From a virus: DNA of 52,799 bases. The position numbers and the translations under genes were made by a program. The stretch spans positions 1 to 52,799 of the IMG/VR virus record IMGVR_UViG_3300020451_001196. One strand, written 5' to 3'. Below the pieces are notes generated by a model. That model saw nothing but the letters and a program-made list of their open reading frames with translations, was not told the DNA's origin and searched no databases. Of the stretch, positions 52,437 to 52,799 are shown one piece after another. Within the stretch, counting starts at the first letter, position 1; the number at the start of each line of letters is the position of its first letter.

Positions 52437-52464
52437 TTGACAGCGACGATATATATAGTATACT
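52437..52464 (+). promoter_or_regulatory. Sigma70-like promoter for the terminal structured RNA
   Basis: TTGACA, 16-base spacer, TATACT. The expected start near 52471 falls exactly at the first stem of the structured RNA, so this RNA has its own promoter. Confidence 0.75.
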
Positions 52465-52470
52465 GATGAT

Positions 52471-52799
52471 GTGGCGGGCAGAGTTGCCTAGACGTTACAG
52501 ACCGTTGGATGATTAGCCAAGTCTGTGGCTATTAGTTCAAAAGACGATCTATTGGGTGCAAGTCCCAGCGACCACAGCCGTACATTAAGACGGATATGGC
52601 GTATAGTACCTCGGCAGCCTGATAGCTATACGGGAAAGTGTTGCCCTAGAACGGGTTTCACCTAAGTCCTACAATACAAACAACTGGTGACCTCTGAGGA
52701 GCGTACTCCACTGGGAACGGGGGAGTTCTATACCTTCCGGCTAGGCCGGGGAAGATTGGACCAACATCGTATAGACGCCAGTTTGTTTTACCTAATCTA
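52471..52799 (+). ncRNA. Large structured non-coding RNA (3' end cut by window)
   Basis: No ORF longer than a few codons is seen. Stems visible by eye: TGTGGCG (52470-52476) with CGACCACA (52569-52576) closing a cloverleaf-like domain that holds GGCA-gagt-TGCC, a 10-bp hairpin ACAGAC..TTGG/CCAA GTCTGT (52497-52526) and a T-arm-like TGGG/CCCA hairpin with loop TGCAAGT. Then CGTATAG/CTATACG, GGAG/CTCC, CTTCCGGC/GCCGGGGAAG, and a long closing helix AAACAACTGG (52678-52687) with CCAGTTTGTTT (52778-52788). Candidates: large ornate phage RNA (GOLLD/ROOL kind) or domain I of a group II intron. Own promoter favours the first. Class not proven. Confidence 0.6.

Follow-up and report, generated by a model that had tools for sequence, protein, structure and literature searches.

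Viral mimicry of tRNA has been studied mainly in eukaryotic RNA viruses. The tRNA-like structures (TLS) of plant RNA viruses resemble the 5' domain of the RNA described here in their viral origin, in a T-arm and T-loop stacked on an acceptor-like helix, and in a pseudoknot. The tmRNA (RF00023) shares with that domain the acceptor, the T-arm and a long P2 arm containing a pseudoknot. mascRNA/menRNA (RF01684) and bacterial YrlA are presumably further cases of a tRNA-like element used by, or hidden in, a longer non-coding RNA, as here. Closest in role and place among the ornate RNAs of phages are GOLLD and ROOL, which are phage-encoded, structured, found near tRNA genes and unassigned in role. 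Both form RNA-only cages, and GOLLD members are often longer than 800 nt (PMC12286853).

The window is the complete linear IMG/VR contig IMGVR_UViG_3300020451_001196, 52,799 nt from a large uncultured phage. Comparison of homologous sequences establishes that its end, from 52470 to beyond 52799, encodes a structured non-coding RNA. It opens with a tRNA-like module A, which contains a pseudoknot; module B, a three-way junction, and module C, made of several helices, follow, and a 3' element completes it. The region is organized as follows:

48902..48946 (+): 3' element, complete copy (model R3, 30.1 bits, E 1e-7)
51153..51198 (+): 3' element, complete copy upstream of the promoter of the GP88 gene (model R3, 34.5 bits, E 4e-9)
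51348..52130 (+): gene of a GP88-family protein (PF17338; Pfam E 1e-33)
52127..52354 (+): 75-aa ORF following the GP88 gene and preceding the RNA promoter
52437..52464 (+): sigma-70-like promoter of the RNA (TTGACA 52437-52442, 16-nt spacer, TATACT 52459-52464)
52470..52576 (+): module A, tRNA-like domain with a four-way junction, 107 nt (28 tested pairs, six helices, 7 sequences)
52470..52476 (+): 5' strand (TGTGGCG) of acceptor-like helix P1, pairing with 52569-52576 (CG-A-CCACA)
52477..52488 (+): D-like hairpin GGCA-GAGT-TGCC
52489..52551 (+): P2 arm (TAGACGT / ACG-A-TCTA), enclosing the pseudoknot; outer four pairs tested
52497..52531 (+): H-type pseudoknot of module A, with interlocked helices S1 and S2
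52552..52568 (+): T-arm-like hairpin TTGGG-TGCAAGT-CCCAG, 5 bp with 7-nt T-loop TGCAAGT, abutting the P1 3' strand
52577..52580 (+): GCCG (R-C-C-R) directly 3' of P1
52582..52671 (+): module B, forming a three-way junction; conservation is highest here, with 93% mean column identity in 8 sequences
52684..52781 (+): module C (7 sequences, 96.8% of cells paired)
52784..52799 (+): truncated 3' element, of which the contig retains only the first 16 nt (TGTTTTACCTAATCTA...); complete in L002, L005, L006, L027 and L030

The window belongs to a distant tailed phage, as indicated by its terminase (phrog_2), portal protein (phrog_2739), GP88 protein and a Kyano_Gp96 protein; no relative of the portal protein was found in cultured phages. 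The GP88 gene is a constant neighbour of RNAs of the window type. No family match was found for the 75-aa ORF that follows it. In three homologous loci (L002, L005, L006) tRNA genes lie a few kb from the RNA. Two other genes of the window were noticed. One, at 41505-42275 (-), possibly encodes a phage sigma factor, as part of its 257-aa product resembles sigma-70 region 2 (Pfam E 2e-4, marginally short of the cut-off). The other, at 42804-44621 (+), codes for a full-length glucosamine-fructose-6-phosphate aminotransferase-like protein with SIS and glutamine amidotransferase domains.

The first-pass annotation of this DNA had described a promoter followed by an ORF-free RNA of raised GC content, and this description holds. 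An ORF scan of 52355-52799 gave no frame of at least 60 aa, and GC is 0.50 in 52470-52799, whereas the sequence immediately upstream has 0.354 and the whole window 0.365. Near-copies of the TTGACA/TATACT promoter precede many genes in related phages. In all six loci with the module order A-B-C, the -10 box is separated from the first P1 pair by 5-7 nt. This is the usual distance to a start site, so transcription probably starts at the first base of the acceptor-like helix, placing module A at +1. The window ends within the RNA gene, whose 3' part is seen in homologues only. Complete homologous RNAs continue beyond this point, stop ahead of the next promoter and are about 350-400 nt long. In L006 the operon upstream of the RNA closes with a terminator-like hairpin (CGTAAGT...ACTTACG-T run). 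Contigs break inside or near the RNA at 52799 of the window and at the ends of L027 and L033, probably because the RNA core is nearly identical among co-occurring strains.

Homologues were collected with the GP88 gene as bait, which gave 22 loci in which the RNA was then sought by BLAST and pattern scans. They are present in L002/L003, L005, L006, L027, L029/L031, L030 and L033, representing about seven related uncultured phages, with one RNA copy per record in the model search; looser scans found no others. In L033, module B has no module A ahead of it. A pattern scan of 85,000 prokaryote genomes gave two matches (L054 and L055), neither of them matched by model R1, and cultured phage genomes gave no match to the RNA or a 27-nt chance match. 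A pattern match in an unrelated GC-rich contig (L121) was set aside as chance on inspection. The folding energy is unexceptional (z = -1.3 for 332 nt, z = -1.5 for A-B-C) and was rejected as proof of a structured RNA; the case therefore rests on the homologues. Their covariation in modules A, B and C is far above that of shuffled and slid controls. The structured, promoter-driven RNA with a cloverleaf-like 5' domain that had been proposed from the window sequence is supported, as is the suggestion that it could be a new class.

In module A, 96.9% of the cells are paired (75% in shuffles) and 19 of the 28 tested pairs changed on both sides, a number reached by none of 500 shuffles (mean 11). 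The covariation score is 0.68 versus 0.24 in shuffles, for a sample of 7 sequences that all come from one phage group. Sliding the structure along the alignment makes pairing collapse to 30-44%. Among the individual helices, the outer five pairs of P1 are paired in 94.3% of cells and three of them changed on both sides; the pairs beyond these five were assigned by reading the sequences. The D-like hairpin is paired in 89% of cells (one pair changed on both sides). Pairing is complete in the outer four pairs of P2 and in the T-arm-like hairpin, with three of four and two of five pairs, respectively, changed on both sides. The pseudoknot is formed by S1 (ACAGAC 52497-52502 with GTCTGT 52521-52526, 100% of cells paired) and S2 (TAGCC 52514-52518 with GGCTA 52527-52531, 97%), and all ten of its tested pairs changed on both sides. 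It is missed by the minimum free energy fold. Of the first-pass annotation, the closed domain of 107 nt stands, as does the T-arm-like hairpin; the middle arm was folded incompletely there and holds the pseudoknot.

The likeness of module A to tRNA lies in the acceptor-like helix of about 7 bp, the abutting 5-bp T-stem that joins the acceptor-like strand without a linker, and the 7-nt T-loop. Homologues have the T-stem variants CCGGG/CCCGG, TAGGG/CCCTA and CTGGG/CCCAG. In the alignment the T-loop retains U54, C56, R57, A58 and a pyrimidine at 60, followed by C61, in standard tRNA numbering. After P1, all seven window-type copies, the permuted one included, keep R-C-C in the form GCCG, GCCA or ACCG; it is retained in L029 too despite a different downstream module. 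Several traits count against mimicry. Window-type T-loops have G where tRNA has U55, the D-like loop is short, and the 7-8 bp of P1 are interrupted by a bulge or mismatch. A full RCCA is found in L005 only among the window-type copies, most others having RCCG; it occurs also in RNAs of other types (L008, L014, L015, L021). Module A is detected neither by ARAGORN nor by the Rfam tRNA model RF00005, and the pseudoknot takes the place of the anticodon hairpin.

What had been read as a single second domain is two modules. Module B has 93.5% of its cells paired and three pairs changed on both sides. Module C consists of a closing helix (CTGGTG/CGCCAG), two variable hairpins and a helix (TCTATAC/GTATAGA) carrying two hairpins; seven of its pairs changed on both sides, some in the variable hairpins. 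Most homologues have the order A-B-C. L029/L031 have B-C-A with a further hairpin domain (D), directly upstream of the GP88 gene, and L030 has A-B with module C absent. These arrangements demonstrate, at the level of sequence, that A may stand before or after B-C and that C can be missing.

The RNA is closed by the 46-nt 3' element (consensus TGTnYYACCTAAnC...AGYCAGC), which is common to other transcripts of the phage. Most related genomes have 2 to about 10 copies clustered near the RNA island, oriented in the direction of transcription in the copies examined. A variable sequence of 4-6 nt is directly repeated before AGYCAGC (0 of 2000 permutations). RNAalifold gave no conserved helix over the whole element, and a small hairpin within it has modest support. 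Its interpretation as an intrinsic terminator was rejected, there being no T-run after it.

In the Rfam search called for by the first-pass annotation (GOLLD, ROOL, group II, tRNA, tmRNA) the RNA matched no family at gathering or permissive thresholds, and no description of it was found in open-access PMC articles. The best weak match was RF00233 (Tymo_tRNA-like; E 0.12, 18.9 bits against the 40 needed for gathering). In contrast to the plant-virus TLS, which occupies the genomic 3' end, the tRNA-like part lies at the 5' end of a free-standing RNA gene of a DNA phage, its acceptor is a simple helix and its pseudoknot is in the middle arm. The RNA differs from mascRNA/menRNA and YrlA, to which it has no significant match, in domain content and hosts.

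The reading that we favour, and consider somewhat probable, is that the window RNA represents a new family of phage RNAs that are modular and mimic tRNA, with module A read by a tRNA-handling host factor. Module A would be the tRNA mimic, recognised by a factor that reads the acceptor/T-arm stack of tRNA; it might recruit this factor, act as its decoy or be processed by it, B-C being the effector body. A self-contained closed domain can stand on either side of such a body. Which factor reads module A is a guess. The stack of T-stem directly on acceptor, and the R-C-C after it, would put RNase P and RNase Z at the head of the candidates, before EF-Tu, the CCA enzyme and the ribosome. If true, such a family of free-standing tRNA-like phage RNAs, with its pseudoknot proved by covariation, would extend viral tRNA mimicry to DNA phages. 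Its several module orders would be natural permutation experiments on RNA domains, in an RNA short enough for crystallography or cryo-EM.

Alternatively, module A could be a maturation handle only, cut at its ends by host RNase P and RNase Z to free B-C as the working RNA. Removal of a handle in the manner of tRNA punctuation makes module order irrelevant, in agreement with the occurrence of both A-B-C and B-C-A, and the tRNA-like stack followed by R-C-C in all seven copies fits this role, as does the leader ahead of the tRNA-like part in L021. The 5' cut would be needless, however, where module A is at its expected +1 position in A-B-C copies, and a mere processing site would have no need of the conserved pseudoknot. 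We regard this alternative as rather unlikely.

An ornate RNA-only assembly, in which the RNA would self-associate via its loops and, like GOLLD and ROOL, function as a particle close to the tRNA/RNA island, appears improbable. The RNA is phage-encoded and multidomain with its own promoter and, in the three loci mentioned, nearby tRNA genes, and the B and C alignments contain near-palindromic loops, GGCAGCC (GGUAACC in L002) and UUGGACCAA (UCGGGCCGA in L033). The two palindrome changes, however, are single events that partly fit intramolecular pairing. Membership in GOLLD/ROOL, which had been suggested, is unsupported: the 460-base stretch gave no match to them among 4227 Rfam models at E<=10, nor did complete homologues at gathering scores. 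At about 370 nt in homologues the RNA is smaller; it is non-homologous by Rfam, has a tRNA-like module and has its modules permuted among phages.

Little credit can be given to a reduced, tagless tmRNA derivative. The P2 arm with pseudoknot and the acceptor/T-arm reproduce the tmRNA layout, and a remote common ancestry with module A is possible. Several relatives encode a true tmRNA, with matches above the cut-off at G001:38532-38873, G004:7860-8201, G006:178418-178760, G007:31331-31672 and G021:851-1191; the ARAGORN tag is ADTSVLALAA in G001, G006 and G007. G009:53173-53681 is a circularly permuted tmRNA with the acceptor piece before the coding piece and the tag AKPSFALAA. G001, G004, G006 and G007, however, carry the tmRNA and the window-type RNA as separate genes, so that module A is distinct from the tmRNA of the phage. 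In addition, the window has no RF00023 or ARAGORN tmRNA match, the RNA lacks a tag ORF and PK2-PK4, and the G3-U70 alanine identity pair was not found in the P1 sequences.

A group II (or group I) intron fragment, proposed earlier for its GGGUGCAAGUCCC-like and GGGAACG-like stretches, has practically no likelihood left: no Rfam intron model matches the stretch at E<=10, the domain I-IV and V-VI models match neither the window nor, at gathering scores, three complete homologues, the roughly 4 kb that follow the RNA in L002 contain no ORF longer than 171 aa, neither an intron-encoded reverse transcriptase nor a split host gene was found, and the RNA is intergenic, has its own promoter and has a permuted domain order.

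RNAs of other types near the GP88 gene also carry tRNA-like parts. A geometric descriptor (T-arm, P1, R-C-C and P2) run on the loci matched L008 and L014, and a variant of it L020, all with bodies unrelated to the window type; shuffled bases gave 6 matches in 4.8e8 and 0 in 4.1e8. As the descriptor requires R-C-C, only in the window type and in L021 does conservation of this motif count as independent evidence. On inspection, L015, L021 and L116 follow the same tRNA-like logic, and the RNA of L021 has a GCCA end. L008, L014, L015 and L116 covary as a second RNA type. A body element (GGGGTATAAATG-CGGCACAA) stands before the tRNA-like part in L008 and after it in L020. These RNAs allow the tentative proposal, about which we are less than evenly convinced, that the island holds promoter-driven RNAs recombining a tRNA-like head, interchangeable bodies and the common 46-nt 3' element as modules, shuffled like protein domains to address the host tRNA-handling or translation machinery.

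A tag-peptide reading of the L008-type RNA (GCA GCU UAG) was rejected, the same bases being explained by a covarying hairpin and L020 and L021 having no stop there. L116 has, upstream of 10585, a second T-arm-like hairpin (CGTGGTTCGATCCCCACG) ahead of the shared body element, so that two tRNA-like parts may flank this element. L002 has another GC-rich non-coding stretch at 7803-8100 that ends in a terminator-like GGCGG-TTTTTTT; it gave no notable match in cultured phages and no Rfam family at gathering scores. The sequence GTGAGTCCGGTGAAxCCCATCGCGATTGAAATAGCGGC recurs upstream of the GP88 gene in L010, L012 and L013, and sometimes within other RNAs.
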